Positions 384-50,552 of a DNA stretch of 64,000 nt are shown piece after piece. This stretch comes from Chondrosia reniformis (lineage: Eukaryota; Porifera; Demospongiae; Chondrillida; Chondrillidae). The first letter of the stretch is position 1. Every line of letters begins with the position of its first letter. The DNA lies in assembly GCA_947172415.1 (NCBI GenBank), contig OX359200.1:4900501-4964500 (forward strand), given 5' to 3'. The translations under genes were made by a program, and so were the position numbers. Under the pieces are notes generated by a model, which was given only the letters and a program-made list of their open reading frames with translations, made no database searches and had not been told where the DNA came from.

Positions 384-3300
384 TGATTGAATTGCTTTCT
401 TGTATAATGATACTCCAAGTGAAGTATAGAATGATAATGACATGTAGACCATTAAATTGTATACAGAAATGTAACACTTTATTGTCATGAACATTTTTTG
501 TATTGACTGAGTTGTTTTCTTGTATCTTTCACTATCTCCTTAACTAATTCAACAAATGAATATTATGGATTAACAGGATGTGAGTATCTGCTTAATGTAG
601 TAGTGTGCATCCATTTTGTTCCTGTGTGTGTTCCAAGTGAAGTGCATAATGATAATGACATGTAGACCATTAAATTTTGTACAGAAATGTAACACTTTAT
701 TGTCATGAACATTTTTTGTATTGACTGAGTTGTTTTCTTGTATCTTTCACTATCTCCTCAACTAATTCAACAAATGAATATTATGGATTAACAGGAAGTG
801 AGTATCTGCTTAATGTAGTAGTGTGTATCCATTTTGTTCCTGTGTGTGTTCCAAGTGAAGTATAGAATGATAATGACATGTAGACCATTAAATTGTAGAC
901 TTTAATATAACACCTTATTGTCATAAACATTGTTTGTATTGACTGCATCTTTCACTATCTCCTCAACTAATTCAACAAATGAATATTATGGATTAACAGG
1001 AAGTGAATATCTGCTTAATGTAGTAGTGTGCATCCATTTTGTTCCTGTGTGTGTTCCAAGTGAAGTATAGAATGATAATGACATGTAGACCATTAAATTG
1101 TATACAGAAATGTAACACTTTATTGTCATGAACATTTTAATGAATTGTTTTCTTGTATCTTTCACTATCTCCTCAACTAATTCAACAAATGAATATTATG
1201 GATTAACAGGATGTGAGTATCTGCTTAATGTAGTAGTGTGCATCCATTTTGTTCCTGTGTGTGTTCCAAGTGAAGTGCATAATGATAATAACATGTAGAC
1301 CATTAAATTGTATACAGAAATATAACACTTTATTGTCATGAACATTGTTTGTATTGACTGAGTTGTTTTCTTGTATCTTTCACTATCTCCTCAACTACTT
1401 CAACAAATGAATATTATGGATTAACAGTCTGTGAGTATCTGCTTAATGTAGTAGTGTGCATCCATTTTGTTCCTGTGTGTGTTCCAAGTGAAGTGTATAA
1501 TGATAATGACATGTAGACCATTAAATTGTAGACTTTAATGTAACACTTTATTGTCCTAAACATTGTTTGTATTGACTGAGTTGTTTTCTTGTATCTTTCC
1601 CTATCTCCTCAATTAATTCGACAAATGAATATTATGGATTAACAGTCTGTGAGTATCTGCTTAATGTAGTAGCGTGCATCCATTTTGTACCTGTGTGTGT
1701 TCCAAGTGAAGTGTATAATGATAATGACATGTAGACTATTACATTGTAGACTTTAATGTAAGACTCTATTGTCATGAACATTGTTTGTTTTGACTGAGTT
1801 TTTTTCTTGTATCTTTCCCTATCTCCTCAACTAATTTAACAAATGAATATTTTGGATAAACAGATTGTGAGTATCTGCTTAATGTAGTAGCGTGCATCCA
1901 TTTTGTACCTGTGTGTGTTCCAAGTGAAGTGTATAATGATAATAACATGTAGACTATTAAATGGTAGACTTTAATGTAACACTTTATTGTCATGAACATT
2001 GTTTGTATTGACTGAGTTGTTTTCTTGTATCTTTCCCTATCTCCTCAACTAATTCGACAAATGAATATTTTGGATTAACAGCCAGTGAGTATCTGTTTAA
2101 TGTAGTAGCGTGCATCCATTTTGTACCTGTGTGTGTTCCAAGTGAAGTGTATAACGATAATAACATGTAGACTATTAAATTGTAGACTTTATAATGTAAC
2201 ACTTTATTGTCATTAACATTATTTATATTGACTGAGTTTTTTTCTTGTATTTTTCACTATCTCCTCAACTAATTCAACAAATGAATATTATGGGTTAACA
2301 GGAAGTGAGTATCTGCTTAATGTAGTAGTGTGCATCCATTTTGTTCCTGTGTGTGTTCCAAGTGAAGTATAGAATGATAATGACATGTAGACCATTAAAT
2401 TGTAGACTTTAATGTAACACTTTATTGTCCTGAACATTGTTTGTATTGACTGAGTTGTTTTCTTGTATCTTTCCCTATCTCCTCAATTAATTCGACAAAT
2501 TAATATTATGGATTAACAGTCTGTGAGTATCTGCTTATTGTAGTAGCGTGCATCCATTTTGTACCTGTGTGTGTTCCAAGTGAAGTGTATAATGATAATG
2601 ACATGTAGACTATTACATTGTAGACTTTAATGTAAGACTCTATTGTCATGAACATTGTTTGTTTTGACTAAGTTTTTTTCTTGTATCTTTCCCTATCTCC
2701 TCAACTAATTTAACAAATGAATATTTTGGATAAACAGATTGTGAGTATCTGCTTAATGTAGTAGCGTGCATCCATTTTGTACCTGTGTGTGTTCCAAGTG
2801 AAGTGTATAACGATAATAACATGTAGACTATTAAATTGTAGACTTTATAATGTAACACTTTATTGTCATTAACATTATTTATATTGACTGAGTTTTTTTC
2901 TTGTATTTTTCACTATCTCCTCGACTAATTCAACAAATGAATATTATGGGTTAACAGGAAGTGAGTATCTGCTTAATGTAGTAGTGTGCATCCATTTTGT
3001 TCCTGTGTGTGTTCCAAGTGAAGTGCATAATGATAATGACATGTAGACCATTAAATTGTATACAGAAATATAACACTTTATTGTCATGAACATTGTTTGT
3101 ATTGACTGAGTTGTTTTCTTGTATCTTTCACTATCTCCTCAACTACTTCAACAAATGAATATTATGGATTAACAGGATGTGAGTATCTGCTTAATGTAGT
3201 AGTGTGCATCCATTTTGTTCCTGTGTGTGTTCCAAGTGAAGTGTATAATGATAATGACATGTAGACCATTAAATTGTAGACTTTAATGTAACACTTTATT

Positions 3301-3638
3301 GTCCTGAACATTGTTTGTATTGACTGAGTTGTTTTCTTGTATCTTTCCCTATCTCCTCAATTAATTCGACAAATGAATATTATGGATTAACAGTCTGTGA
3401 GTATCTGCTTAATGTAGTAGTGTGCATCCATTTTGTACCTGTGTGTGTTCCAAGTGAAGTGTATAATGATAATGACATGTAGACCATTAAATTGTAGACT
3501 TTAATGTAACACTTTATTGTCCTGAACATTGTTTGTATTGACTGAGTTGTTTTCTTGTATCTTTCCCTATCTCCTCAATTAATTCGACAAATGAATATTA
3601 TGGATTAACAGTCTGTGAGTATCTGCTTAATGTAGTAG
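384..3638 (+). repeat. 218-bp tandem array 1a (15 units carrying the variable triplet)
   Basis: Head-to-tail repeat with a ~218-bp period. The first copy (about 384-500) has lost its middle. On the + strand each complete unit shows a pyrimidine-rich stretch (TTGTTTTCTTGTATCTTTC), a CTAAT branch-point-like motif about 33 nt before CAG, a variable triplet, then GTGAGT. Triplets and first base: GAT 577, GAA 795, GAA 1000, GAT 1210, TCT 1428, TCT 1646, ATT 1864, CCA 2082, GAA 2302, TCT 2520, ATT 2738, GAA 2958, GAT 3176, TCT 3394, TCT 3612. The unit at 1000 has GTGAAT instead of GTGAGT. Arrays 1a and 1b are one array split by a transposon. It could be a plain satellite, but the arrangement looks like a 3-nt exon with splice sites. 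Units here are more diverged from each other than those in array 2. Confidence 0.95.
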
Positions 3639-3999
3639 CCCATGAAAAAATGTTTGCCTGCTACAGAACTGTGGCACAACTGCTTAACAGTTAATATGAC
3701 TGTTGCATGACTGTTTAACAACTGTTTATTTATCAGTTGTTTAGCAGTTAGGGCTCAGACCTGAAATTTTCATTAATTTAATTATCACATTGTTATCACA
3801 TTGTCACACAACTGTCATTCAACTGTCAATTTACATGCCTGAAAATTACAGGTCTGCCACAGATTTAAAACTTGCCACATCTTGTTATCACGTAGTTACA
3901 CAACTGTCGATCAACTGTCAATTTACATGCCTGGAAATTACAGTTCTGCCACAGATCAAAATAATTATAATAATGTACCTATAATGAATAAAGCTGATA

Positions 4000-6303
4000 T
4001 TAGTCACCATCAAAGTGAACTAGTGGAATGGCTACAAAATTGTGATTACAGTTAGTAATGACCATACATTTAGCTAAAATAGAAGAAACTGGAATGCAAT
4101 GTAGAGTTTGTACATCAGTTGAAATACGATGTATATGAGTAATAGAAGAAAAAACTGATGTCTGTAATGTAAATGGTCTGATCATTACATATGTTTTTGA
4201 TGGCTGTTGACCATGTTGAAGGATGAATGATACTATGCGACCAAAGTTAATGTTCTGCTGATTGGTTGCATACATGGCTACAGTATTATCATGATGGGAT
4301 GATTGATTCCATGATTCACTATGATAACTAACATTTTTGTGACATATTCTTGAGAATTTAACCCATGTTGCAGTACTCCAATCGCAGTGCACAACTTTGA
4401 TTACATCTTGTTCATCTTTGGTCATTTCATGCACTGAAGTTGCTCCCAAAATTATTGTTTCATTTCCTTCCACTTTTTCCCTTTGATATTTTTTTTGCAT
4501 TATCTGAACACACTGGATTGCCTGTTCTCCAATCCCTCTTGTGCCATGGATGAAGCAACGAACTTGCCCATTAAAGCTCTCAAACGGGAACAATGAGGTG
4601 GTCCATAATGGACCTAACTCTCTGACACTATCAGCATAGTGGAGGAGGTTATGCACATTCATGTTCATATGCTGCTCGCCATACAAATTTGCATATCTAT
4701 GCACAAAATTGGTGAGAAATCTCTCAGCTGCTGTTATCTGATTCTCTGAAATATTCATACTAAGTAGAATATAAACAGCTTGAACCAAAAGCTCCAAATG
4801 TTCAAAATAGACTGATGGTAGGATACCTTCTAGGATAGGCGTGTAATAGAGCAGGAACATTCTATACTCAGAAGCCTTCCAGTCCTTCCTTTCACTAATT
4901 GATCGGGGGCACCGACTAAATTCACATGGAGGCTTGGAGGACAGGAGTAGTTGACTGATGATGTTGGTACTCTTACCAAGATAATAAGGTTCCTTGTGGT
5001 GGTCAGATTGAAACCATAATGAGAGAAGGTTCCTAACAACTCCCAGGAATATTCCATGCATGTGGTCTATAGCTGTTCCTTGAATCACATTGTAACTGTG
5101 AACCATTGCAAGTGGAGTTATACCTACAATTCCTGCGATGGGATTGTGAGACCTGGCAGCTTCTATGCCATTGGCAATGAACTGCTGATGAGTTCTTTTT
5201 GGTCCAGTAGGATCACTCTTGATGAACGGCCAAACATGTGAATGTGCTCTTGGACCACTATGATAGGTCTTTCCTGGTTGGGTACACTTCACACAGGCAT
5301 AAAAAGCATTAAATTGCTTCATGTTTAGTACAGATGCTCTGGCAGGCAAATCAAAGGTGCCAGAAAGTAACATTATTTTGCTTGTGAAGGGACTGGAGAA
5401 GTGTGGTGAGTGGACTTGCATTCCAAAAAGGCATAAATTCTTCAAAGCTTCACAAATTCTTTTTAAAAACAGCGACATGAATGGCTTTTGAAAACTACAC
5501 CAGACACCTCCTATGAGCATATTTTCCAGCCGAAATCGCATTTTAGGAGGTAACTCATTTATGATGAAATAAACAGGCCAAAAGGACCTCTTGGAAGAAT
5601 TGAATATTTTTACGCCATCAGTATTCACGGTAAGTGAAAGGTTATTTGGGCTGGAAAGAGGGCCTTCATTTTCACTTAAACGTTTATATACTGATCCATC
5701 ATAAATATCCTGAATAGTTGATGAATCCCTGTGTACAGATCTTTCAAAGCGATACTCTAAGTTAGAAACAAATTTTTTCTGGTCAAATTTTCGCTGTATT
5801 TGAGCTTCAAGAGGAAGTAGTAGGAAGTATGGAGCATTTGCAAACTTCTCACCACAATCGGAACATTCACTATCGCAATTTGGTAGTTCTCCTCCACATG
5901 TTGAACAGTAGTAACAACGTTGCGCTTCCTCCATGTCTTCTCCAATGTGCTTAGTAAATAGGTATGTACTTCTAAAGAAAGCTGCTGGAAGCGTACACAC
6001 ACGCGAAAGCAGTTTTAATAGATCACCAAGCGCCTTCTTAGTTAGTTTGTGCTTTAGGTAGAATGATGTTACGAGTGATAAAAGTTCATCTGACGAAATC
6101 TGCAAATCAGCGTCCTCAGCCTCAGTCAGTTCTGTAAATCTGTCATATTCGGCGTAATCTTCGAAGTCTTCGTCTGAATGATTAAAGCAAATAGGGTCGA
6201 TCTTTTAATTCCGTACAAGTTAAATTGTATATATTTCTCTCTTACCATCAGACAGCTTCCAGTCCTCGCTCTCATTTGCTCTCCGCTTCTTACGCTCTGA
6301 CAT
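4000..6303 (-). CDS. tnp2-family transposase, two exons
   Basis: Exon 1 is 6303-6246, starting at ATG (MSERKKRRANESEDWKLSD). It is followed by a 72-bp intron (GTAAGA...TTCAG), then exon 2 at 6173-4000. Joined they encode about 743 aa with no internal stop. The protein has an acidic N-terminus and a zinc-ribbon-like cluster (CYYCSTCGGEL then CSDCG). It then has the tnp2/DDE core of CACTA transposases: TVNTDGVKIF, RSFWPVYFIINELPPKMRF, DLPARASVLNMKQFNAFYAC, AIDHMHGIFLGV and FPFESFNG. The aspartates of TDG and IDHMHG and the glutamate of PFESFNG are the likely catalytic residues by family analogy. Later RSISERKDWKASEYR and the LLVQAVYILLS helix match the DUF4218-like C-terminal region. It would excise and reinsert the surrounding element. 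It is transcribed divergently from the BEN gene. Without the intron the frame opens only at a TTG (6105), so the spliced start is preferred. Confidence 0.88.
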
Positions 6304-6512
6304 CGTAGACGATTTAGGCAAAAAAGTTAACAAATTACCAACTCGAAAACTATACCGTATACTAAGTATCGACACGGACGAACACTAAAATATCCGATAC
6401 TAGGGCAACACTGATTGGCCTATTTTATATGACGTAATAATAGCGGAAGTTTTAAACATTTCTTACACCTCGAATGAGTCAGTTTTTAGAGTAAAAGCGC
6501 TGCATATCGATC
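6304..6512. promoter_or_regulatory. Shared divergent promoter region of the transposon genes
   Basis: About 209 bp separate the ATG of the minus-strand transposase (6303) from the ATG of the plus-strand BEN gene (6513). This stretch must hold both promoters. I see AT-rich blocks (CTATACCGTATACTAAG near 6350) and a TGACGT motif near 6430, but no clear TATA box assigned to either gene. Confidence 0.5.
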
Positions 6513-7881
6513 ATGAGTGGAATGGAATACTGCATAGTTCAGTGGGAAAATGGTTCTTACAGTAAAAGAAGTCGACAGCAAATCAAGCATGGAAATATTA
6601 AGATTGGTGAAAAGGTTAAATGTCAGTGGAAGAAAACAAGTGCCATGGGAACTATTATTAGATATGGCAGTAAGGAAGACATGGATTCCTATTTAGAAGG
6701 CTTTTTGCAAACTAAGCAGGACAGCAGAATAAGGAAGAGGACAAATCCTCAGACTAAGAAGCAGACAGAAAGAATCAAAACAATAAAAAACAATAGGGCA
6801 CAGAAAGAAGCAGAAGAATTTCAGGCTCAACTTCATCAGCCTTATGAAAGTTGTAGCCAACCTATTGGGTTAGAAACCCCTTCTACAGATGAAGAAAGTG
6901 ACTTACAAATAAGTCAAAGAATAAGAAGAATTGAAGAAAATATGATCCAAAGATCTGAGGTAGAACAGAGCTTAGCATGCCCTGCTGAAAACATCCAACC
7001 TAGTGTTTCATCAGTGATTGGATCTGCCTATTCTAGCATAGGCTTAGGGTCTGAGACAGAGAGAAATATCCAGGTATCATCTGCAGTGACACCTAATGAG
7101 AACAGCTTCAATTTGGCAGGATACCTACCAATAACAAACACTGGGCAAACCTATAATGGCTACCAGTTCACCTCCCCACCTATGCAACCACCCCAAGTCC
7201 ACCCAAGAAACCAAGACCTGTATCAGAGAAGTCCTCTTACAACAATGCCATTGAACCACATGCAGTCACCAGATCGATTAGGATGGTCCCTTAACTACAC
7301 TCAATACTTAAAACTCACTGCAACAATTGATATGCTAACTGAAAAGGTTTTTAATCTGGAAAAAACAGTACAAGAATTAACTAATGAACGAAGTAGTCAA
7401 GGGACCACTACTAGCTCACAGCTGGATCTGGTGGAGATTTCAAAAGGTTCTGGCATCCACATTGGAAGGAATGCAGCCAAGACATTACAGCTACTGTCCA
7501 AAAACCACAGCTGGAAGTACTGCTTTAGGAAACTCCTACAGACAGTTTTTGATGTGGAATATCTGGCTGATCATTCTGCCAAAGGAAAGAAAGGCTCAGC
7601 TTTTGTTGCTGTGGATCCTAACAAGCTTGGAGCATGCAAAGGTTTGCAGCTATCTGTATATTGCTAGCTAATATATCATGATGTGCTCTTTTATCCTAAT
7701 CCTATACTACTCTTCAGATTTCATTTTACTGCTTTATAAAAACGTAAGTGAAATAACAGAGGAAGCCATCACAAAGATTGTAAACGATGTATGTGCTGAA
7801 AAAAGGAGGAAACTAAAGACTTTAGACCAAGGTAGCCAGCCATCGTGTAATGATAATGAAGAAGATGAAGTCATACAGTGA
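6513..7881 (+). CDS. BEN-domain protein of the CACTA-like element, two exons
   Basis: Exon 1 is 6513-7641, intron 7642-7717 (GTTTGC...CTTCAG), exon 2 7718-7881. The join restores KLGACK-DFILLLYKNVSEIT in frame and gives 430 aa. The N-terminus (about 1-60) resembles a small beta module: YCIVQWENGSYSKRS ... GEKVKCQWKK ... GTIIRYG. The middle is polar and low-complexity, with a short coiled coil (MLTEKVFNLEKTVQELTNE). The C-terminal ~110 aa match a BEN domain: helices around AAKTLQLLSKNHSWKYCFRK, LLQTVFDVEYLADHS, then VDPNKLGACKDFI and EEAITKIVNDVC. BEN domains bind DNA or chromatin, so this is probably the accessory DNA-binding protein of the transposon, acting on the terminal repeats. That function is inferred from the pairing and domain, not shown. 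Confidence 0.82.
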
Positions 7882-8366
7882 AGAACAACAGATCATTTTT
7901 TAGTTTATTTTATAATATAATATTTTCAAGACCTGATATCTACTTTTGTCTTTTATGTATCATGCTAATGTATTATATAGTAATCACTGACTGCAATATA
8001 TGTACAATATGTGCAGAGTGCTAACATGACTGTAGCTGTACAGTGGTCACATGATTGTAGCTGACATATATAAATAGCTGTCCCATGACTGTAAACTGCA
8101 GATATGACTGTGGCAGGCCTGTTGAATACATGCTAACTAGCCTTTAAAAATCATAACTGTGGCAGGTCTGTATGCTGCAGTTAAATTAACACTTTTAATC
8201 AAAATATTAGTTGTTAATTCAAAAGATTTTTACAGTACTGTCAGAGAACTGTCAGAGAACTGTTTCAGAGCTGTAACATATTTCCTACAGTTATGAAACA
8301 TTTCTGTCTATGACAGAATTAACTGCAGCTGACAGACCTGCTACATGTAACACTCTTTTTCATGGG

Positions 8367-11300
8367 AGTGTGCATCCATTTTGTACCTGTGTGTGTTCCA
8401 AGTGAAGTGTATAATGATAATGACATGTAGACTATTACATTGTAGACTTTAATGTAAGACTCTATTGTCATGAACATTGTTTGTTTTGACTGAGTTTTTT
8501 TCTTGTATCTTTCCCTATCTCCTCAACTAATTTAACAAATGAATATTTTGGATAAACAGCCAGTGAGTATCTGTTTAATGTAGTAGCGTGCATCCATTTT
8601 GTACCTGTGTGTGTTCCAAGTGAAGTGTATAACGATAATAACATGTAGACTATTAAATTGTAGACTTTATAATGTAACACTTTATTGTCATTAACATTAT
8701 TTATATTGACTGAGTTTTTTTCTTGTATTTTTCACTATCTCCTCAACTAATTCAACAAATGAATATTATGGGTTAACAGGAAGTGAGTATCTGCTTAATG
8801 TAGTAGTGTGCATCCATTTTGTTCCTGTGTGTGTTCCAAGTGAAGTATAGAATGATAATGACATGTAGACCATTAAATTGTATACAGAAATGTAACACTT
8901 TATTGTCATGAACATTTTTTGTATTGACTGAATTGTTTTCTTGTATCTTTCACTATCTCCTCAACTAATTCAACAAATGAATATTATGGATTAACAGTTT
9001 GTGAGTATCTGCTTAATGTAGTAGTGTGAATCCATTTTGTTCCTGTGTGTGTTCCAAGTGAAGTATAGAATGATAATGACATGTAGACCATTAAATTGTA
9101 TACAGAAATGTAACACTTTATTGTCATGAACATTTTTTGTATTGACTGAATTGTTTTCTTGTATCTTTCACTATCTCCTCAACTAATTCAACAAATGAAT
9201 ATTATGGATTAACAGTTTGTGAGTATCTGCTTAATGTAGTAGTGTGAATCCATTTTGTTCCTGTGTGTGTTCCAAGTGAAGTATAGAATGATAATGACAT
9301 GTAGACCATTAAATTGTAGACTTTAATATAACACCTTATTGTCATAAACATTGTTTGTATTGACTGCATCTTTCACTATCTCCTCAACTAATTCAACAAA
9401 TGAATATTATGGATTAACAGGAAGTGAGTATCTGCTTAATGTAGTAGTGTGCATCCATTTTGTACCTGTGTGTGTTCCAAGTGAAGTATAGAATGATAAT
9501 GACATGTAGACCATTAAATTGTATACAGAAATGTAACACTTTATTGTCATGAACATTTTAATGAATTGTTTTCTTGTATCTTTCACTATCTCCTCAACTA
9601 ATTCAACAAATGAATATTATGGGTTAACAGGAAGTGAGTATCTGCTTAATGTAGTAGTGTGCATCCATTTTGTTCCTGTGTGTGTTCCAAGTGAAGTATA
9701 GAATGATAATGACATGTAGACCATTAAATTGTATACAGAAATGTAACACTTTATTGTCATGAACATTGTTTGTATTGACTGAATTGTTTTCTTGTATCTT
9801 TCACTATCTCCTCAACTAATTCAACAAATGAATATTATGGATTAACAGTTTGTGAGTATCTGCTTAATGTAGTAGTGTGAATCCATTTTGTTCCTGTGTG
9901 TGTTCCAAGTGAAGTATAGAATGATAATGACATGTAGACCATTAAATGCAGATATGTAACACTTTATTGTCATGAACATTGTTTGTTTTGACTGAGTTGT
10001 TTTCTTGTATCTTTCACTATCTCCTCAACTAATTTAACAAATGAATATTATGGATTAACAGGATGTGAGTATATCTGTTTAATGTAGTAGCATACATCCA
10101 TTTTGTTACTGTGTGTGTTCCAAGTGAAGTGTATAATGATAATGACATGTAGACCATTAAATTGTAGACCTTAATGTAAGACTCTATTGTCATGAACATT
10201 GTTTGTATTGACTGAGTTGTTTTCTTGTATCTTTCCCTATCTCCTCAACTAATTCGATAAATGAATATTATGGATTAACAGCCAGTGAGTATCTGTTTAA
10301 TGTAGTAGCGTGCATCCATTTTGTACCTGTGTGTGTTCCAAGTGAAGTGTATAACGATAATAACATGTAGACTATTAAATTGTAGACTTTATAATGTAAC
10401 ACTTTATTGTCATTAACAGTATTTGTATTGACTGATTTGTTTTCTTGTATCTTTCACTATTTCCTCAACTAATTCCACAAATGAATATTTTGGATTAACA
10501 GAGAGTGAGTATCTGCTTAATGTAGTAGTGTGCATCCATTTTGTTCCTGTGTGTGTTCCAAGTGAAGTGTATAATTATAATGACATGTAGACTTTAATGT
10601 GACACCTTATTGTCATTAACATTATTTATATTGACTTAGTTGTTTTCTTGTATTTTTCACTATCTCCTCAACTAATTCGACAAATGAATATTATGGATTA
10701 ACAGAGAGTGAGTATCTGCTTAATGTAGTAGTTCATGTGCATCCATTTTGTTCCTGTGTGTGTTCCAAGTGAAATGTATAACGATAATAACATGTAGACT
10801 ATTACATTGTAGACTTTAATGTAAGACTTTATTGTCATGAACATTGTTTGTATTGACTGAGTTGTTTTCTTGTATTTTTCACTATCTCCTCAACTAATTC
10901 GACAAATGAATATTTTGGATTAACAGAGAGTGAGTATCTGTTTAATGTAGTAGTGTGCATCCATTTTGTACCTGTGTGTGTTCCAAGTGAAGTGTATAAC
11001 GATAATGACATGTAGACCATTAAATGCAGATATGTAACACTCTATTGTCATGATCATTGTTTTTTTGACTGAGTTGTTTTCTTGTATCTTTCACTATCTC
11101 CTCAACTAATTGAAAAAATGAACATTATGGATTAACAGGATGTGAGTATACGTATGTTTAATGTAGTAGCGTGCATCCATTTTGTACCTTTGTGTGTTCC
11201 AAATAAAGTGTATAACGATAATGACATGTAGACCATTAAATTGTAGACTTTAATGTATAACAATTTATTGTCATTAACATTATTTGTATTGAGTGAGTTG

Positions 11301-11470: not shown

Positions 11471-11517
11471 ACCAATAATCTAATGTTATATTTACGTCTA
11501 TATGGACTAAAATATAG

Positions 11518-37100: not shown

Positions 37101-40100
37101 GTTTTCTTGTATCTTTCACTATCTCCTCAACTAATTCAACAAATGAATATTATGGATTAACAGCAAGTGAGTATCTGCTTAATGTAGTAGTGTGCATCCA
37201 TTTTGTTCCTGTGTGTGTTCCAAGTGAAGTGTAGAATGATAATGACATGTAGACCCTTAAATTGTATACAGAAATGTAACACTTTATTGTCATGAACATT
37301 TTTTGTATTGACTGAGTTGTTTTCTTGTATCTTTCACTATCTCCTCAACTAATTCAACAAATGAATATTATGGATTAACAGCAAGTGAGTATCTGCTTAA
37401 TGTAGTAGTGTGCATCCATTTTGTTCCTGTGTGTGTTCCAAGAGAAGCGTATAATGATAATAACATGTAGACTGTAAATTGTATACAGAAATGTAACACT
37501 TTATTGTCATGAACATTTTTTGTTATGACTAAGTTGTTTTCTTGTATCTTTCACTATCTCCTCAACTAATTTAACAAATGAATATTATGGATTAACAGCA
37601 AGTGAGTATCTGCTGAATGTAGTAGTGTGCATCCATTTTGTTCCTGTGTGTGTTCCAAGTGAAGCGTATAATGTTAATGACATATAGACCATTAAATTGT
37701 ATACAGAAATGTAACACTTTATTGTCCTGAACATTGTTTGACATTGACTGAGTTATTTTCTTGTATCTTTCACTATCTCCTCAACTAATTCAACAAATGA
37801 ATATTATGGATTAACAGCAAGTGAGTATCTGCTTAATGTAGTAGTGTGCATCCATTTTGTTCCTTTGTGTGTTCCAAGTGAAGCGTACAATGTTAATGAC
37901 ATGTAGACCATTAAATTGTATACAGAAATGTAACACTTTATTGTCATGAACATTGTTTGTATTGACTGAGTTATTTTCTTGTATCTTTCACTATCTCCTC
38001 AACTAATTCAACAAATGAATATTATGGATTAACAGGAAGTGAGTATCTGCTTAATGTACTAGTGTGCATCCATTTTGTTCCTGTGTGTGTTCCTAGTGAA
38101 GTGTAGAATGATAATGACATGTAGACCATTAAATTGTATACAGAAATGTAACACTTTATTGTCATGAACATTGTTTGTATTGACTGAGTTGTTTTCTTGT
38201 ATCTTTCACTATCTCCTCAACTAATTCAACAAATGAATATTATGGATTAACAGAGAGTGAGTATCTGCTTAATGTAGTAGTGTGCATCCATTTTGTTCCT
38301 GTGTGTGTTCCAAGTGAAGTGTAGAATGATAATAACATATAGACTGTAAATTGTATACAGAAATGTAACACTTTATTGTCATGAACATTTTTTGTAATGA
38401 CTAAGTTGTTTTCTTGTATCTTTCACTATCTCCTCAACTAATTCAACAAATGAATATTATGGATTAACAGGATGTGAGTATCTGCTTAATTTAGTAGTGT
38501 GCATCCATTTTGTTCCTGTGTGTGTTCCAAGTGAAGCGTATAATGTTAATGACATGGAGACCATTAAATTGTATACAGAAATGTAACACTTTATTGTCAT
38601 GAACATTGTTTGTATTGACTGAGTTGTTTTCTTGTATCTTTCACTATCTCCTCAACTAATTCAACAAACGAATATTATGGATTAACAGTTGGTGAGTATC
38701 TGCTTAATGTAGTAGTGTGCATCCATTTTGTTCCTGTGTGTGTTCCAAGTGAAGTATAGAATGATAATGACATGTAGACCTTTAAATTGTATATATACAG
38801 AAGTGTAGCACTTTATTGTCATGAACATTGTTTGTATTGACTGAGTTGTTTTCTTGTATCTTTCACTATCTCCTCAACTGATTCAACAAATGAATATTAT
38901 GGATTAACAGATTGTGAGTATCTGCTTAATGTAGTAGTGTGCATCCATTTTGTTCCTGTGTGTGTTCCAAGTGAAGTATAGAATGATAATGACATGTAGA
39001 CCATTAAATTGTATACAAAAATGTAAAACTTTATTGTCATGAACATTGTTTGTAATGACTAAGTTGTTTTCTTGTATCTTTCACTATCTCCTCAACTAAT
39101 TCAACAAATGAATATTATGGATTAACAGCAAGTAAGTATCTGCTTAATGTAGTAGTGTGCATCCATTTTGTTCCTGTGTGTGTTCCAAGTGAAGTATAGA
39201 ATGATAATGACATGTAGACCTTTAAATTGTATACAGAAATGTAACACTTTATTGTCATGAACATTGTTTGTAATGACTGAGTTGTTTTCTTGTATCTTTC
39301 ACTATATCCTCAACTAATTCAACAAACGAATATTATGGATTAACAGAGAGTGAGTATCTGCTTAATGTAGTAGTGTGCATCCATTTTGTTCCTGTGTGTT
39401 TTCCAAGTGAAGTATAGAATGATAATGACATGTAGACCATTAAATTGTATACAGAAATGTAACACTTTATTGTCATGAACATTGTTTGTATTGACTGAGT
39501 TGTTTTCTTGTATCTTTCACTATCTCCTCAACTAATTCAACAAACGAATATTATGGATTAACAGGCTGTGAGTATCTGTTTAATGTAGTAGTGTGCATCC
39601 ATTTTGTTCCTGTGTGTGTTCCAAGTGAAGTATAGGATGATAATGACATGTAGACCATTAAATTGTATACAGAAATGTAACACTTTATTGTCATGAACAT
39701 TGTTTGTATTGACTGAGTTGTTTTCTTGTATCTTTCACTATCTCCTCAACTAATTCAACAAATGAATATTATGGATTAACAGCAAGTGAGTATCTGCTTA
39801 ATGTAGTAGTGTGCATCCATTTTGTTCCTGTGTGTGTTCCAAGTGAAGTGGAAGATGATAATGACATGTAGACCATTAAATTGTATACAGAAATGTAACA
39901 CTTTATTGTCATGAACATTGTTTGTATTGACTGAGTTGTTTTCTTGTATCTTTCACTATCTCCTCAACTAATTCAACAAACGAATATTATGGATTAACAG
40001 ATTGTGAGTATCTGCTTAATGTAGTAGTTTGCATCCATTTTGTTCCTCTGTGTGTTCCAAGTGAAGTATAGAATGATAATGACATGTAGACCATTAAATT

Positions 40101-41767
40101 GTATACAGAAATGTAACACTTTATTGTCATGTACATTGTTTGTATTGACTGAGTTGTTTTCTTGTATCTTTCACTATCTCCTCAACTAATTCAACTAATG
40201 AATATTATGGATTAACAGCAAGTGAGTATCTGCTTAATGTAGTAGTGTGCATCCATTTTGTTCCTGTGTGTGTTCCAAGTGAAGTGGAAGATGATAATGA
40301 CATGTAGACCATTAAATTGTATACAGAAATGTAACACTTTATTGTCATGAACATTGTTTGTATTGACTGAGTTGTTTTCTTGTATCTTTCACTATCTCTT
40401 CAACTAATTCAACAAATGAATATTATGGATTAACAGCAAGTGAGTATCTGCTTAATGTAGTAGTGTGCATCCATTTTGTTCCTGTGTGTGTTCCAAGTGA
40501 AGTGGAAGATGATAATGACATGTACTTAGACCATTAAATTGTATACAGAAATGTAACACTTTATTGTCATGAACATTGTTTGTATTGACTGAGTTGTTTT
40601 CTTGTATCTTTCACTATCTCCTCAACTAATTCAACAAATGAATATTATGGATTAACAGCAAGTGAATATCTGCTTAATTTTGTAGTGTGCATCCATTTTG
40701 TTCCTGTGTGTGTTCCAAGTGAAGTATAGAATGATAATGACATGTAGACCTTTAAATTGTATACAGAAATGTAACACTTTATTGTCATGAACATTGTTTG
40801 TATTGACTGAGTTGTTTTCTTGTATCTTTCACTATCTCCTCAACTAATTCAACAAATGAATATTATGGATTAACAGATTGTGAGTATCTGCTTAATGTAG
40901 TAGTGTGCATCCATTTTGTTCCTGTGTGTGTTCCAAGTGAAGTGTATAATGATAATGACATGTAGACCTTTAAATTGTATACAGAAATGTAACACTTTAT
41001 TGTCATGAACATTGTTTGTATTGACTGAGTTGTTTTCTTGTATCTTTCACTATATCCTCAACTAATTCAACAAACGAATATTATGGATTAACAGATTGTG
41101 AGTATCTGCTTAATGTTGTAGTGTGCATCCATTTTGTTCCTGTGTGTGTTCCAAGTGAAGTGGAAGATGATAATGACATGTAGACCATTAAATTGTATAC
41201 AAAAATGTAACACTTTATTGTAATGAACATTTTTTGTATTGACTGAGTTGTTTTCTTGTATCTTTCACTATCTCCTCAACTAATTCAACAAATGAATATT
41301 ATGGATTAACAGAGAGTGAGTATCTGTTTAATGTAGTAGTGTGCATCCATTTTGTTCCTGTGTGTGTTCCAAGTGAAGTATAGAATGATAATGACATATA
41401 GACCATTAAATTGTATACAGAAGTTTAACACTTTATTGTCATGAACATTGTTTGTATTGACTGAGTTGTTTTCTTGTATCTTTCACTATCTCCTCAACTA
41501 ATTCAACAAATGAATATTATGGATTAACAGATTGTGAGTATCTGCTTAATGTAGTAGTGTGCATCCATTTTGTTCCTGTGTGTGTTCCAAGTGAAGTGTA
41601 GAATGATAATGACATGTAGACCATTAAATTGTATACAGAAATGTAACACTTTATTGTCATGAACATTGTTTGTATTGACTGAGTTGTTTTCTTGTATCTT
41701 TCACTATCTCCTCAACTAATTCAACAAATGAATATTATGGATTAACAGCAAGTGAGTATCTGCTTAA
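31196..41767 (+). repeat. 218-bp tandem array 2a (49 units carrying the variable triplet)
   Basis: Same unit as array 1, far more homogeneous. All 49 units have CAG, exactly three bases, then GTGAGT (40), GTAAGT (8) or GTGAAT (1, near 40662). CAA occurs 25 times. Other triplets by first base: GCT 31274 and 39565; ATT 31709, 33673, 38911, 40001, 40877, 41095, 41531; CTA 32579, 33233, 36509; GAA 32797, 34981, 38036; AGA 34109, 35206, 38254, 39347, 41313; GAT 35642 and 38471; GTG 35860; TTG 38689. A different repertoire from array 1 (no TCT, CCA or TTT). Other variable spots in the unit (for example GTGTAGAATG, GTGGAAGATG or GCGTATAATG after CCAAGTGAA) have only a few states. Confidence 0.95.
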
Positions 41768-42729
41768 AGGGCCACTGACATGCTCAAAATTGATTTTGAG
41801 TTAGCAGCATTTTCCAAGTGTCTAACGAGTATAGGTAAAATCGAAATTTTGTTTTCGTCGATACCGTTCCTTCGAAGGGAAATTGAGGCACTTCCGGACC
41901 ACTTCGCTCGAAGCTCGGTCTATTTGCGGTCAACTGGTGGTTAGGCCGTTTGTGACGTCACGTCAGGAATAGATCGTTCGTGGACTTACCGTTTCGTATA
42001 CATCTCGTTCGACGAGAATGCCCAAACGATGCGCTGCAATCTTCAAAGACAGGACGATGTCAGCTTATTTACATTCTCTAATGATAAAGGTTTAACTCCA
42101 AAAGAAAAATACATATTCCCTACAATCTTTCCCAAGCCATGGTAATATTTTAAGTAATCATTTTTAGCGTGACCATCAGTAATCTGACCAGCCAAAATAG
42201 GCTTACTAGTCACGAAATTAGTAGGGTGATTTACATTTAGTTGTGAATAAAAGGGAATGCCTAAGTTTATACATCCTAAAGAAAATTTTAAAGTGGATGA
42301 TTCTATTATTGTCTGTGTTTAAGAGAACTAGCTTGTTGCTTTGGGACAGGGACATGAATTCGCAGTTGATTTGGTTACAATAAGCAAACAAGTCAGATCT
42401 GATAGAGTTCGGTTTGGTACAGTACAATCTGTACCCCCACGACATACTTGGCAGACCCTCTGCCCAAATGTGTATCAACCAACCCCTCAACAGCCAGGGG
42501 AAGACAACCAGTATGCAGACCAGGCATGATTCTTTTTCTGCCACTGTCACGACCAATTACATATGGCTCTACATTAGGTCTAAATTTAATGTTACGGTAT
42601 ATATTAATCTGCCTCCAGAGTTTAAATCACTAGGAATTATGTTAAAATTGTTGAGCCATCGCCACATAGTACATGTATATTCAATAAAGAGATATATATG
42701 CCATGTATCGATGACGTCTACAATATATT

Positions 42730-42760
<31 letters not shown>

Positions 42761-43555
42761 ATAAACATGCCATACATACGTACGTATATGAGGCTAATGC
42801 CATGGCACACAAATATATGCAAATTGTTATGCATGCAATATAACAATTTCCATAATATTATGTAGTATGGCATTAGTCTTCTGCCAAATAACTCATGCAT
42901 GTCTCCATTTAATGAGCCCTGTCCATACTCCTGGTTATATTGGAAACCATGCATGCAGCAGTTTGCAATACCCAAAAATTGAGGCATACAGACTCAAATC
43001 CTGGGTGTTGCAATATGCACTCAATGCCATTACCCCTAATATACATGATGGCGACTACTTTGCAGAGTAGATCGATCTAGGGCAAGTAGACCTTACCAAT
43101 CGTGATTTACCAGCCTTGCGCTATTGTTGGCCGTTTCATCGGTTCCTTCTGACCCGTGTAACGGTTCGAATTGATACGGCTCAATTGTAACCATAGTGTC
43201 TTCTAAAATGATTGCGCCACTATCTTCGCACGTTTCCGAATCAGATTCTGAATTGTCTTCATCCTCGTCAAAACTAGAAGACTCATAATATAGTTATAAG
43301 CTACCGAAATTGTCCTCTTCCATACTAAAACTGGTATACGATCCGTACTTCCGTTCCTGATGTGACGTCACAGCAGACCAGGCGAAAAAGTTGTTTTTTT
43401 TATTGCGGTTGTGTTTCGCCCACGTAAATATGACAAGTATTTATCTTTATTTAGGTAAAACTAAAGCGATCTGACCATTTTAATTTACACTGTTAGAGTA
43501 CTCTATATTATACCTAACTTTTAAGCAAAAGAAAAAATAGCATGTCAGTGGCCCT
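41768..43555. mobile_element. TTAA-flanked DNA transposon (Kolobok- or piggyBac-like), degenerate
   Basis: Ends AGGGCCACTGACATGCT (41768-41784) and its exact reverse complement AGCATGTCAGTGGCCCT (43539-43555) are each flanked by TTAA (41764-41767 and 43556-43559). Removing the element and one TTAA restores the normal repeat text CTGCTTAATGTAG. TTAA duplication fits Kolobok or piggyBac. The AGGG terminus and the P2X7R-like coding relic inside favour a Kolobok-like element, but this is inference. A (GATT)n run lies at 42731-42760. A minus-strand open stretch at about 42060-42310 (containing HPTNFVTSKPILAGQITDG) is unrecognised. Confidence 0.85.
42900..43323 (-). pseudogene. Decayed P2X7R-like intracellular-domain gene inside the TTAA element
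   Basis: The minus strand opens at ATG 43323 (MEEDNFGSL then a stop). It resumes in a shifted frame as an acidic stretch (SSSFDEDEDNSESDSETCED), then TIEPYQFEP and RLVNHD, ending in a good donor (ATTG/GTAAGG, 43097). A second block near 43035-42940 reads GIECILQHPGFESVCLNFWV followed by LQTAA. After a frameshift it continues QYNQEYGQ. The YxFEP motif, the ECI..HPGF..VCLN..VLQTA motif and the Y.QEYG motif are hallmarks of the P2X7 intracellular-like domain family, which is expanded in invertebrates. The zinc-binding CxCxxC segment between the two blocks is missing. It cannot make a full product. Confidence 0.7.
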
Positions 43556-43559
43556 TTAA

Positions 43560-46500
43560 TGTAGTAGTGTGCATCCATTTTGTTCCTGTGTGTGTTCCAA
43601 GTGAAGTGTAAAATGATAATGACATGTAGACCATTAAATTGTATACAGAAATGTAACACTTTATTGTCATGAACATTTTTTGTATTGACTAAGTTGTTTT
43701 CTTGTATCTTTCACTATCTCCTCAACTAATTCAACAAATGAATATTATGGATTAACAGGATGTGAGTATCTGCTTAATGTAGTAGTGTGCATCCATTTTG
43801 TTCCTGTGTGTGTTCCAAGTGAAGTATAGAATGATAATGACATGTAGACCATTAAATTGTATACAGAAATGTAACACTTTATTGTCATGAACATTTTTTG
43901 TATTGACTGAGTTGTTTTCTTGTATCTTTCACTATCTCCTCAACTAATTCAACAAACGAATATTATGGATTAACAGGCTGTGAGTATCTGCTTAATGTAG
44001 TAGTGTGCATCCATTTTGTTCCTGTGTGTGTTCCAAGTGAAGTGTAGAATGATAATGACATGTAGACCATTATATTGTATACAGATATGTAACACTTTAT
44101 TGTCATGAACATTGTTTGTATTGACTGAGTTGTTTTCTTGTATCTTTCACTATCTTCTCAACTAATTCAACAAATGAATATTATGGATTAACAGGCTGTG
44201 AGTATCTGCTTAATGTAGTAGTGTGCATCCATTTTGTTCCTGTGTGTGTTCCAAGTGAAGTGTAGAATGATAATGACATGTAGACCATTATATTGTATAC
44301 AGATATGTAACACTTTATTGTCATGAACATTGTTTGTATTGACTGAGTTGTTTTCTTGTATCTTTCACTATCTCCTCAACTAATTCAACAAATGAATATT
44401 ATGGATTAACAGGCTGTGAGTATCTGCTTAATGTAGTAGTGTGCATCCATTTTGTTCCTGTGTGTGTTCCAAGTGAAGTGTAGAATGTTAATGACATGTA
44501 GACCATTAAATTGTATACAGAAATGTAACACTTTATTGTCATGAACATTGTTTGTATTGACTGAGTTGTTTTCTTGTATCTTTCACTATCTCCTCAACTA
44601 ATTCAACAAATGAATATTATGGATTAACAGGCTGTGAGATCTGCTTAATGTAGTAGTGTGCATCCATTTTGTTCCTGTGTGTGTTCCAAGTGAAGTGTAG
44701 AATGATAATGACATGGAGACCTTTAAATTGTATACAGAAATGTAACACTTTATTGTCATGAACATTGTTTGTATTGACTGAGTTGTTTTCTTGTATCTTT
44801 CACTATCTCCTCAACTAATTCAACAAACGAATATTATGGATTAACAGTAAGTAAGTATCTGCTTAATGTAGTAGTGTGCATCCATTTTGTTCCTGTGTAT
44901 GTTCCAAGTGAAGTGTAGATTGAAAATGATATTTAGACCATTAAATTGTATACAGAAATGTAACACTTTATTGTCATGAACATTGTTTGTATTGACTGAG
45001 TTGTTTTCTTGTATCTTTCACTATCTCCTCAACTAATTGAACAAATGAATATTATGGATTAACAGATTGTGAGTATCTGTTTAATGTAGTAGTGTGTATC
45101 CATTTTGTTCCTGTGTGTGTTCCAAGTGAAGTATAGAATGATAATGACATGTAGACCATTAAATTGTATACAGAAATGTACGTAACACTTTATTGTCATG
45201 AACATTGTTTGTAATGACTAAGTTGTTTTCTTGTATCTTTCACTATCTCCTCAACTAATTCAACAAATGAATATTTTGGATTAACAGGCTGTGAGTATCT
45301 GCTTAATGTAGTAGTGTGCATCCATTTTGTTCCTGTGTGTTTTCCAAGTGAAGTATAGAATGATAATGACATGTAGACCATTAAATTGTATACAGAAATG
45401 TAACACTTTATTGTCATGAACATTGTTTGTATTGACTGAGTTGTTTTCTTGTATCTTTCACTATCTCCTCAACTAATTCAACAAATGAATATTATGGATT
45501 AACAGGCTGTGAGATCTGCTTAATGTAGTAGTGTGCATCCATTTTGTTCCTGTGTGTGTTCCAAGTGAAGTGTAGAATGATAATGACATGGAGACCTTTA
45601 AATTGTATACAGAAATGTAACACTTTATTGTCATGAACATTGTTTGTATTGACTGAGTTGTTTTCTTGTATCTTTCACTATCTCCTCAACTAATTCAACA
45701 AACGAATATTATGGATTAACAGCAAGTAAGTATCTGCTTAATGTAGTAGTGTGCATCCATTTTGTTCCTGTGTATGTTCCAAGTGAAGTGTAGATTGAAA
45801 ATGATATTTAGACCATTAAATTGTATACAGAAATGTAACACTTTATTGTCATGAACATTGTTTGTATTGACTGAGTTGTTTTCTTGTATCTTTCACTATC
45901 TCCTCAACTAATTGAACAAATGAATATTATGGATTAACAGATTGTGAGTATCTGTTTAATGTAGTAGTGTGTATCCATTTTGTTCCTGTGTGTGTTCCAA
46001 GTGAAGTATAGAATGATAATGACATGTAGACCATTAAATTGTATACAGAAATGTACGTAACACTTTATTGTCATGAACATTGTTTGTAATGACTAAGTTG
46101 TTTTCTTGTATCTTTCACTATCTCCTCAACTAATTCAACAAATGAATATTTTGGATTAACAGGCTGTGAGTATCTGCTTAATGTAGTAGTGTGCATCCAT
46201 TTTGTTCCTGTGTGTTTTCCAAGTGAAGTATAGAATGATAATGACATGTAGACCATTAAATTGTATACAGAAATGTAACACTTTATTGTCATGAACATTG
46301 TTTGTATTGACTGAGTTGTTTTCTTGTATCTTTCACTATCTCCTCAACTAATTCAACAAATGAATATTTTGGATTACCAGTTGGTGAGTATCTGCTTAAT
46401 GTAGTAGTGTGCATCCATTTTGTTCCTGTGTGTGTTCCAAGTGAAGTGGAAGATGATAATGACATGTAGACCATTAAATTGTATACAGAAATGTAACACT

Positions 46501-49500
46501 TTATTGTCATGAACATTGTTTGTATTGACTGAGTTGTTTTCTTGTATCTTTCACTATCTCCTCAACTAATTCAACAAATGAATATTATGGATTAACAGGA
46601 TGTGAGTATCTGCTTAATGTACTAGTGAGCATCCATTTTGTTCCTGTGTGTGTTCCAAGTGAAGTGTAGAATGATAATGACATGGAGACCTTTAAATTGT
46701 ATACAGAAATGTAACACTTTATTGTCATGAACATTGTTTGTATTGACTGAGTTGTTTTCTTGTATCTTTCACTATCTCCTCAACTAATTCAACAAATGAA
46801 TATTATTGATTAACAGTTGGTGAGTATCTGCTTAATGTAGTAGTGTGCATCCATTTTGTTCCTGTGTGTGTTCCAAGTGAAGTGGAAGATGATAATGACA
46901 TGTAGACCATTAAATTGTATACAGAAATGTAACACTTTATTGTCATGAACATTGTTTGTATTGACTGAGTTGTTTTCTTGTATCTTTCACTATCTCCTCA
47001 ACTAATTCAACAAATGAATATTATGGATTAACAGCAAGTAAGTATCTGCTTAATGTAGTAGTGTGCATCCATTTTGTTCCTGTGTGTGTTCCAAGTGAAG
47101 TGTAGAATGATAATGACATGTAGACCATTAAATTGTATACAGAAATGTAACACTTTATTGTCATGAACATTGTTTGTATTGACTGAGTTGTTTTAAAATT
47201 TCTTGTATCTTTCACTATCTCCTCAACTAATTCAACAAACGAATATTATGGATTAACAGATTGTGAGTATCTGTTTAATGTAGTCGTGTGCATCCATTTT
47301 GTTCCTGTGTGTGTTCCAAGTGAAGTATAGAATGATAATGACATGTAGACCATTAAATTGTATACAGAAATGTAACACTTTATTGTCATGAACATTGTTT
47401 GTATTGACTGAGTTGTTTTCTTGTATCTTTCACTATCTCCTCAACTAATTGAACAAATGAATATTTTGGATTAACAGCAAGTAAGTATCTGCTTAATGTA
47501 GTAGTGTGCATCCATTTTGTTCCTGTGTGTGTTCCAAGTGAAGTGTGGAATGATAATGACATGGAGACCTTTAAATTGTATACAGAAATGTAACACTTTA
47601 TTGTCATGAACATTGTTTGTATTGACTGAGTTTTTTTCTTGTATCTTTTACTATCTCCTCAACTAATTCAACAAATGAATATTATGGATTAACAGGCTGT
47701 GAGTATCTGCTTAATGTAGTAGTGTGCATCCATTTTGTTCCTGTGTATGTTCCAAGTGAAGTATAGAATGATAATGACATGTAGACCATTAAATTGTATA
47801 CAGAAATGTAACACTTTATTGTCAGGAACATTGTTTGTATTGACTGAGTTGTTTTCTTGTATCTTTCACTATCTCCTCAACTAATTCAACAAATGAATAT
47901 TATGGATTAACAGTTGGTGAGTATCTGCTTAATGTAGTAGTGTGCATCCATTTTGTTCCTGTGTGTGTTCCAAGTGAAGTGGAAGATTATAATGACATGT
48001 AGACCATTAAATTGTATACAGAAATGTAACACTTTATTGTCATGAACATTGTTTGTATTGACTGAGTTGTTTTCTTGTATCTTTCACTATCTCCTCAACT
48101 AATTCAACAAATGAATATTATGGATTAACAGCAAGTAAGTATCTGCTGAATGTAGTAGTGTGCATCCATTTTGTTCCTGTGTGTGTTCCAAGTGAAGTGG
48201 AAGATGATAATGACATGTAGACCATTAAATTGTATACAGAAATGTAACACTTTATTGTCATGAACATTGTTTGTATTGACTGAGTTGTTTTCTTGTATCT
48301 TTCACTATCTCCTCAACTAATTCAACAAATGAATATTATGGATTAACAGGCTGTGAGTATCTGCTTAATGTAGTAGTGTGCATCCATGTTGTTCCTGTGT
48401 ATGTTCCAAGTGAAGTATAGAATGATAATGACATGTAGACCATTAAATTGTATACAGAAATGTAACACTTTGTTGTCATGAACATTGTTTGTATTGACTG
48501 AGTTGTTTTCTTGTATCTTTCACTATCTCCTCAACTAATTCAACAAATGAATATTATGGATTAACAGCAAGTAAGTATCTGCTTAATGTAGTAGTGTGCA
48601 TCCATTTTGTTCCTGTGTATGTTCCAAGTGAAGTATAGAATGATAATGACATGTAGACCATTAAATTGTATACAGAAATGTAACACTTTATTGTCAGGAA
48701 CATTGTTTGTATTGACTGAGTTGTTTTCTTGTATCTTTCACTATCTCCTCAACTAATTCAACAAATGAATATTATGGATTAACAGTTGGTGAGTATCTGC
48801 TTAATGTAGTAGTGTGCATCCATTTTGTTCCTGTGTGTGTTCCAAGTGAAGTGGAAGATTATAATGACATGTAGACCATTAACTTGTATACAGAAATGTA
48901 ACACTTTATTGTCATGAACATTGTTTGTATTGACTGAGTTGTTTTCTTGTATCTTTCACTATCTCCTCAACTAATTCAACAAATGAATATTATGGATTAA
49001 CAGCGAGTAAGTATCTGCTGAATGTAGTAGTGTGCATCCATTTTGTTCCTGTGTGTGTTCCAAGTGAAGTGGAAGATGATAATGACATGTAGACCATTAA
49101 ATTGTATACAGAAATGTAACACTTTATTGTCATGAACATTGTTTGTATTGACTGAGTTGTTTTCTTGTATCTTTCACTATCTCCTCAACTAATTCAACAA
49201 ATGAATATTATGGATTAACAGCAAGTGAGTATCTGCTTAATGTAGTAGTGTGCATCCATTTTGTTCCTGTGTGTGTTCCAAGTGAAGTGGAAGATTGTAA
49301 TGACATGTAGACCATTAACTTGTATACAGAAATGTAACACTTTATTGTCATGAACATTGTTTGTATTGACTGAGTTGTTTTCTTGTATCTTTCACTATCT
49401 CCTCAACTAATTCAACAAATGAATATTATGGATTAACAGCGAGTAAGTATCTGCTGAATGTAGTAGTGTGCATCCATTTTGTTCCTGTGTGTGTTCCAAG

Positions 49501-50552
49501 TGAAGTGGAAGATGATAATGACATGTAGACCATTAAATTGTATACAGAAATGTAACACTTTATTGTCATGAACATTGTTTGTATTGACTGAGTTGTTTTC
49601 TTGTATCTTTCACTATCTCCTCAACTAATTCAACAAATGAATATTATGGATTAACAGCAAGTAAGTATCTGCTTAATGTAGTAGTGTGCATCCATTTTGT
49701 TCCTGTGTATGTTCCAAGTGAAGTATAGAATGATAATGACATGTAGACCATTAAATTGTATACAGAAATGTAACACTTTATTGTCAGGAACATTGTTTGT
49801 ATTGACTGAGTTGTTTTCTTGTATCTTTCACTATCTCCTCAACTAATTCAACAAATGAATATTATGGATTAACAGTTGGTGAGTATCTGCTTAATGTAGT
49901 AGTGTGCATCCATTTTGTTCCTGTGTGTGTTCCAAGTGAAGTGGAAGATTATAATGACATGTAGACCATTAACTTGTATACAGAAATGTAACACTTTATT
50001 GTCATGAACATTGTTTGTATTGACTGAGTTGTTTTCTTGTATCTTTCACTATCTCCTCAACTAATTCAACAAATGAATATTATGGATTAACAGCGAGTAA
50101 GTATCTGCTGAATGTAGTAGTGTGCATCCATTTTGTTCCTGTGTGTGTTCCAAGTGAAGTGGAAGATGATAATGACATGTAGACCATTAAATTGTATACA
50201 GAAATGTAACACTTTATTGTCATGAACATTGTTTGTATTGACTGAGTTGTTTTCTTGTATCTTTCACTATCTCCTCAACTAATTCAACAAATGAATATTA
50301 TGGATTAACAGCAAGTGAGTATCTGCTTAATGTAGTAGTGTGCATCCATTTTGTTCCTGTGTATGTTCCAAGTGAAGTATAGAATGATAATGACATGTAG
50401 ACCATTAAATTGTATACAGAAATGTAACACTTTATTGTCATGAACATTGTTTGTATTGACTGAGTTGTTTTCTTGTATCTTTCACTATCTCCTCAACTAA
50501 TTCAACAAATGAATATTATGGATTAACAGCAAGTGAGTATCTGCTTAATGTA
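43560..50552 (+). repeat. 218-bp tandem array 2b (32 units carrying the variable triplet)
   Basis: Continues array 2a after the TTAA element. Donor-like sequence: GTGAGT 20, GTAAGT 10, GTGAGA 2 (44634 and 45509). CAA occurs nine times. Others by first base: GAT 43759, 46599; GCT 43977, 44195, 44413, 44631, 45288, 45506, 46163, 47696, 48350; TAA 44848 (the only stop codon in 110 triplets); ATT 45066, 45941, 47260; TTG 46381, 46817, 47914, 48786, 49876; CGA 49004, 49440, 50094. Higher-order copies are visible: 44631-45423 recurs almost unchanged at 45506-46298 (875 bp, four units). Blocks of the type TTG then CGA, with GTGGAAGATTATAATG, recur near 47914, 48786 and 49876. Amplification is therefore recent. 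Confidence 0.95.

Follow-up and report, generated by a model that had tools for sequence, protein, structure and literature searches.

A tandem array of probable three-base exons

A 64-kb window on chromosome 12 of the sponge Chondrosia reniformis (the whole stretch of DNA analysed, C12:4900501-4964500) carries tandem units of about 218 bp, each with three variable bases enclosed between a 3' and a 5' splice site. We read these triplets as single-codon exons that are probably spliced in series, at a rough probability of 0.84, writing the front end of a death-domain protein one codon per exon. The array is real, ordered and under splicing and coding constraint, and it appears to be supported by a fossil message: an intronless gene copy on chromosome 13, with 57 codons in the array's place. 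Exon phase and an open frame through the array of the window's first gene (gene 1) point the same way. Coordinates are window positions; negative ones and those above 64,000 belong to flanking chromosome 12.

The initial annotation of the window counted 110 units, and a pattern scan returns the same number: 106 exact matches to TTAACAGNNNGT, with three TAAACAG variants and one TTACCAG variant. All 110 have CAG before, GT after and exactly three bases between. The full GTRAGT annotated for 106 of them is also recovered (108 pattern matches less those at 13897 and 56695, which are unrelated); the other four units read GTGAAT (1000 and 40659) or GTGAGA (44631 and 45506). The tally of 14 triplet states agrees throughout: CAA 34, ATT 12, GCT 11, GAT 10, GAA 10, AGA 8, TTG 6, TCT 5, CCA 3, TTT 3, CTA 3, CGA 3, GTG 1 and TAA 1.

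Most units of the array family are found beyond the window, on both sides. A wider scan of 264 kb, with at most 5 mismatches, finds 376 units on the + strand and one match on the - strand, which has no GT and was rejected as a unit. Over 284 kb there are 397 units, from -37896 to 213238; the family therefore spans 251 kb of chromosome 12 and comprises at least 397 units. Exceptions to the CAG/GT rule stay few beyond the window, with CAG in 392 units, AG in 397, GT in 396 and GTRAGT in 390 (the 5' splice site being GTGAGT in 352 and GTAAGT in 38). The motif CTAATT occupies -33 to -28 in 367 of the 397, where the annotation had placed CTAAT. Neighbouring units are separated by an intron of 215 nt in 250 of 365 pairs, and the triplets are of 29 types. 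Unit remnants are found at insertion edges (43544, 77760 and 202836).

Genome searches covered 117,379,552 bases in 15 contigs. A 25-mer unit pattern has 307 exact matches on the + strand, 0 on the - strand and 0 for the control; with this pattern and with a unit as DNA query, all of the matches listed are on chromosome 12. Anchors left and right of the triplet form 373 pairs, 365 of them with a gap of 3; by inspection, the remaining eight (gaps of 2, 5 and 7) also have three bases followed by GT, the indel being further on. Among the units inspected, namely those of the window and the paired anchors, no array exon has a length other than 3.

This spacing bears on one option of the initial annotation, recursive-splicing ratchet points, here taken to mean units that would only assist the removal of a long intron and add no base to the mRNA. 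A 3' splice site does adjoin a 5' splice site in every unit. A ratchet point encloses a zero-length exon, however, and here CAG and GT are three bases apart in all 110 units of the window and in the paired ones. Ratchets need neither a three-base spacer nor sense codons nor codon diversity; the introns are only about 215 nt long, and codons are retained in the intronless copy. We consider this option barely credible.

Variability and constraint within the units

A triplet no more variable than the rest of the unit, which the initial annotation had named as a decisive counter-finding, is not what we see. In 376 aligned units the triplet columns have 1.90, 1.75 and 1.36 bits and rank first, second and fourth of 218, with a column median of 0.174 bits; one intron column, +71, exceeds the third triplet column with 1.37 bits. 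The flanks are as constant as had been described: 0 bits for the AG before, 0.03 and 0 bits for the GT after. The triplet also changes between near-identical units, as claimed. In an ungapped comparison in which pairs share units, it differs in 38 of 65 pairs with no difference in 202 intron bases (in 14 at all three bases), and in 156 of 210 pairs with one intron difference. Relaxed constraint alone is insufficient here, since the variation is far above that of ordinary intron columns.

The triplets are nevertheless not free. A stop occurs in one unit of 397 (TAA, at 44848 in the window), against 17.5 expected from column independence. A triplet of the form xAG, which would offer a second 3' splice site, also occurs once, against 20.6 expected. 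For either count, none of 20,000 column shuffles was as low, these shuffles ignoring the relatedness of the units. No AG is found between -45 and -3 in 395 of the 397 units; measured against the consensus in units with at most 4 substitutions, one substitution of 301 creates an AG, although 20 of the 129 possible changes (15.5%) would do so. The third base of the triplet is C in only five of the 397 units. C is disfavoured at position -1 of a 5' splice site, so this scarcity is expected. The depleted AG, the conserved CTAATT and the conserved 5' sites are signs of spliceosome use; the strong depletion of stops, of xAG and of AG-creating changes reflects splicing and coding constraint.

The same data make it very improbable that the units are satellite DNA with a local mutation hotspot, another option of the initial annotation. 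Their tandem arrangement and high homogeneity are those of a satellite, but the missing stops and missing AGs would go unexplained, as would the single orientation, the fixed length of 3, the association with one gene family and the intronless copy; nor do the units lack coding constraint.

Gene 1 and its predicted frame

Gene 1 lies on the + strand. Its exon 1 (47-163) holds the 5' UTR and an ATG (161-163), with the 5' splice site GTAGGA immediately after it. We place the start of this exon by alignment to the intronless copy, whose own 5' end matches in two blocks (window 47-91 and 133-164 against 1890-1933 and 1942-1974 of L031, the 4-kb stretch containing the copy). The unit scan then gives microexons m1-m15 (577-3614), 15 single codons reading DEEDSSIPESIEDSS, with introns of about 215 nt, and m16-m29 (8560-11365), 14 single codons reading PEFFEEFDPRRRDD.

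From an open joined frame, nine exons follow. Exon e1 (11518-11601), phase 0, encodes GRDLSLKES... and starts the coiled-coil-like part; the array codons would join its sequence GGAAGAGATTTATC, and skipping the array would directly join ATG|GGAAGAG. Then come e2 (11757-11849), e3 (11960-12043), e4 (13478-13582), e5 (13801-13899), e6 (15805-15879), e7 (15940-16111) and e8 (16243-16270). The last exon, e9 (16357-16660), contains the Death domain and the stop; the intronless copy uses the same 3' splice site, TAG|TACTCAG, which replaces a candidate site at 16369. The gene annotated at 11518-16660 is real, but its exons keep phase 0 only to the start of e7, and exon 1 with its ATG had not been listed.

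The predicted frame has 377 open residues over 1 + 29 + 9 exons, in the order M, DEEDSSIPESIEDSSPEFFEEFDPRRRDD from the microexons, GRDLSLKES... and the Death domain; DEEDSSIPESIEDSSPEFFEEFDPR would be an example of an array-encoded peptide stretch. The Death domain (PF00531, window 16295-16657) scores 26.7 bits, above the gathering score of 22.6, with E 6.4e-06, and the closest solved structure is FADD (1fad, E 0.005). The predicted N-terminus, MDEEDSSIPES..., is acidic and, by eye only, unlike a signal peptide.

An upstream exon-like sequence (-63 to -22) was rejected as the start of gene 1: the transcript of the intronless copy starts at about 47, with the ATG at 161-163. This sequence, M(P/E/A)RGPI..ADIK.S in phase 0, has eight copies in the cluster, four being MPRGPIRAADIKRS and four variants. 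GTAAGT follows five of the eight, and the intronless copy lacks it. It is possibly an alternative start or a dead exon.

Among the options of the initial annotation, splicing in series is favoured by the splice-signal constraint, by the 377-residue frame through 29 microexons and by the 57 codons of the intronless copy. Each unit of about 218 bp would consist of one complete spliceosomal intron and one single-codon exon, multiplied by tandem duplication, and each duplication would add one residue in frame. Exon 1, ending in ATG, would be spliced to the first triplet, and the NNN|GTRAGT of each triplet to the next CAG, on to the coiled-coil exon e1 (GRDLS...). The mRNA would then encode M, the residues written one per exon, the coiled coil and, in one type of copy, the Death domain. 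We infer from these genomic features that such splicing still takes place. An exon of 3 nt hardly has room for factors at both of its ends at the same time, and each new junction would be the next 5' splice site; a step-wise, recursive-like order is therefore likely.

Recombination among units may keep the introns alike while selection keeps the codons different; the differences could mean either that diversity itself is selected or that selection preserves a given peptide. The array may perhaps represent a fast-evolving N-terminal segment of a death-domain signalling family: this segment is acidic in gene 1 and in the intronless copy, and Q/E/K/L-rich in others.

An intronless copy on chromosome 13

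Searching the genome at the protein level gave an intron-free match at C13:6441175-6442044, within an intronless copy that spans C13:6440890-6442204. Its frame of 358 residues reads M EDDEFQPQDDFLEDDYQDYPDSDEHEDYLEQEQEDYLEQEQEDYLEYGDEDQYEQDD GRDLSYKDPKDLSQLTQLEFNVVK DERDRYLSEK... and on to a Death domain (24.6 bits with PF00531). The order is that of a spliced message: 5' UTR and ATG, 57 codons (EDDEFQPQDD...YEQDD), a counterpart of e1, recognised from translation only, and later exons joined. These later blocks match chromosome-12 exons with breaks at exon borders, and comprise two of the e2/e4 type, e5, e6, e7 and e8. The 57-codon block (L031:1974-2144) occupies the place of the array, between ATG and e1. 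We read the copy as a retrocopy, a 'fossil cDNA', made from the spliced message of a gene related to gene 1.

The block has the same codon bias as the arrays. No codon of 57 ends in C, whereas 44 of 300 elsewhere in the frame do (Fisher P 0.0006); none of its 14 Glu codons is GAG, against 13 of 39. It ends in GAT GAT, the same two codons as m28-m29 in gene 1. We also count in favour of our reading that the block gives one 22-base match (E 0.09) with the 284-kb cluster and otherwise none, and that, run with its flanks against the genome, it returned only itself, in a search of low sensitivity that missed the short exon-1 matches too.

The 57 codons also bear on whether the units are alternatives, with one or a few triplets per mRNA swapping or inserting single residues as cassette or mutually exclusive exons. 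Any subset of units would keep the frame, with phase 0 on both sides, and the same codons recur within arrays. The uninterrupted run of 57 codons at the array's place argues against such use, and we hold this reading to be improbable.

Over e1-e9 the Ka/Ks of the intronless copy against gene 1 is 0.52, and two other pairs give 0.54 and 0.30. A search for homologues among 5.8 billion proteins returned one match from 2611 candidates, identical to the chromosome-13 protein and from another record (a 7,076,433-base contig). Searches for further intronless copies found none: the short terminal exon and 3' UTR shared by some array genes (see below) gave 13 places, all on chromosome 12 or at the known copy, and exon 1 gave seven, all on chromosome 12. 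The latter search says little, as it missed even the chromosome-13 copy.

Other arrays of the cluster

One scan divides the units among nine arrays of 29, 8, 1, 29 (gene 1), 79, 54, 21, 101 and 75 units; it misses at least 2 units of the 79-unit array. Nine exon-1 copies were found in the cluster, the ninth at 118152-118203. All nine keep ATG|GTAGGAGT and read ATG|GTAGGA. By eye, the codon content of the arrays differs: acidic in gene 1, Gln-rich in the second array of the window and Lys/Glu-rich in the last.

The second gene of the window, also on the + strand, begins with an exon-1 copy identified by its match (30886-30975; ATG 30973-30975, then GTAGGA). Its array, delimited by the unit scan (31274-50532), has 81 units, which are the 79 of the scan with at most 5 mismatches together with the GTGAGA units at 44631 and 45506. 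The codons are mostly for Q/R/L/I/A/E, with the TAA at 44848-44850. A sequence match gives a frameshifted e1-like exon after the array (50588-50656, borders approximate); the corresponding exon is open after the arrays at +86.8 and +177.4 kb. A short terminal exon and 3' UTR (56333-56543, borders approximate), common to the array genes without a Death domain, completes the gene. Several long arrays end in this way: a shortened e1 comes after the units, and at some distance there is a short terminal exon whose 3' UTR is related, with no Death domain. Death-domain exons 87-91% identical to that of gene 1 lie at -11940, 114803, 133208 and 146206.

Points against splicing in series

Besides the relatedness of units that the column shuffles ignore, several observations weigh against our reading. 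Some concern the arrays. The search for exon-1 copies gave none for one of the nine arrays, that of 101 units. The gene of the second array may be dead, or may skip units, given its one TAA unit and the frameshifted e1. Helical periodicity of the array peptides reaches an uncorrected P < 0.06 in three of eight segments only.

Others concern the intronless copy. By eye it has no clear poly(A) tail, and a possible target duplication is only 7 bases long; it has nothing that corresponds to e3, and lacks a portion of e7. The label of retrocopy thus rests on the absence of introns. The 57-codon block contains an internal 24-base repetition. Over the Death-domain stretch Ka/Ks is 2.8, a figure that depends on only 2 synonymous changes.

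Two features of the block would also fit a different origin, from an ordinary exon since lost, the arrays being decayed or unspliced intron DNA. By eye, no present array peptide resembles the 57 codons in their order, and Gln is encoded by CAG in seven of nine cases in the block, against 0 of 72 in the arrays. Such codons could stem from past CAG exons, or some of them from use of an upstream AG or from later change. Decayed or unspliced DNA does not account for the splice-signal, stop and AG constraint in 397 units, and the third-base bias is common to block and arrays. Moreover, the block lies between the counterparts of exon 1 and e1, the two exons on either side of the arrays today. A lost exon accordingly seems to us a poor explanation, and splicing in series a better one.

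The seven CAG codons might record past use of the AG three bases upstream.

Relation to known systems

Micro-exon genes of schistosomes have exon lengths that keep the frame. One article describes them as carrying many exons of 3-81 bp between long introns, with an N-terminal signal peptide as a conserved feature (PMC10526429). Gene 1 resembles them in being built of many very short exons, all multiples of three: 29 exons of 3 nt in our model. The schistosome exons vary in length and sequence, whereas here each near-identical 218-bp tandem unit holds one codon, and the gene is of the death-domain kind, without an obvious signal peptide.

Dscam-type clusters are made of tandemly duplicated, full-size variable exons with related introns, used in a mutually exclusive way. 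The arrays share the tandem variable exons and the related introns, but have one codon each, and the evidence of the intronless copy suggests that these are used in series; its 57 codons speak against one exon per mRNA.

Single 3-nt microexons are on record. One report describes such an exon in mouse Ncam, adding one residue (PMC8042270), and others are reported in RPS24 and PICALM. They add one residue as the array exons would, but are isolated, in contrast to tens in a row. An exon of 1 nt is reported for Arabidopsis (PMC4674806), and the bicycle genes of aphids surfaced in the microexon-family literature (PMC9168663). Microexons in general are exons of at most 30 nt with functional 3' and 5' splice sites, kept in mRNA; the arrays show strong splice-site constraint, and the intronless copy points indirectly to retention. 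Ratchet points of recursive splicing (PMC8605326, PMC6110457) likewise have a 3' splice site adjoining a 5' splice site and a step-wise splicing that is likely here too; the arrays differ by three variable bases between the sites and by short introns.

Within the titles and abstract openings that we found, there is no precedent for an array of single-codon exons, much of the matching literature, mostly under subscription, lying outside that view. If our reading is right, this would be, as far as that literature search goes, the first case of a gene built so that a tandem array of whole introns spells out part of a protein, one codon per exon. The spliceosome would have to cope with 3-nt exons by the dozen, one after another, which would put both exon versus intron definition and step-wise splicing to a sharp test. 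Duplication of an intron unit would be a new route to protein diversity, adding an in-frame residue, with codons that differ between near-identical introns. Standard gene annotation probably misses 3-nt exons, and similar genes may hide elsewhere. The claim is testable at once, since public RNA reads for the species exist (ERR10177766, cited in PMC12181767).

We regard as rather unlikely, though worth stating, that the arrays are programmable peptide writers, in which each cell or individual splices its own run of codons into a combinatorial N-terminal tag on a death-domain protein of the immune or self-recognition type. Variable runs are possible insofar as any subset of one-codon exons keeps the frame, and unequal exchange between individuals would also change the length and content of an array.

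Neighbourhood and wider genome

A transposon (3640-8366, borders approximate) separates m15 from m16. It contains a tnp2-type transposase open reading frame (ORF; 4003-6204, - strand; Pfam Transposase_21, 2.8e-10) and a BEN-like ORF (6495-7667, + strand) whose value of 0.0035 is below the cut-off. Between the two genes of the window lies a transposase (20692-22488, - strand) that we take to be pogo/Tigger-like; it carries DDE_1 and Psq HTH, and its C-terminus has a weak PHD finger match that is sub-threshold. Just before exon 1 of the second gene are about four copies of a 104-bp tandem repeat with 97% matches (29889-30308). A LINE-like reverse transcriptase frame (52861-55626, - strand; RVT_1 2.1e-18 for 54187-55626), with neighbouring frames, is placed between the second array and its terminal exon.

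We searched the genome for other array families with the pattern TTNCAGNNNGTRAGTA, which gave 28 matches on the + strand and 17 on the - strand, against 8 and 11 for the control. Nine are units of the chromosome-12 cluster, five form a set on C2 and the other 31 are scattered. A genome-wide protein search with gene 1 returned 114 matches, mostly Death-domain exons, on many chromosomes and with a dense set on C2; they point to a large death-domain family in Chondrosia reniformis. At C2:6926984-6978635, five copies of TTCCAGTGAGTAAGTA stand about 12-14 kb apart, a spacing that suggests a tandem gene cluster.

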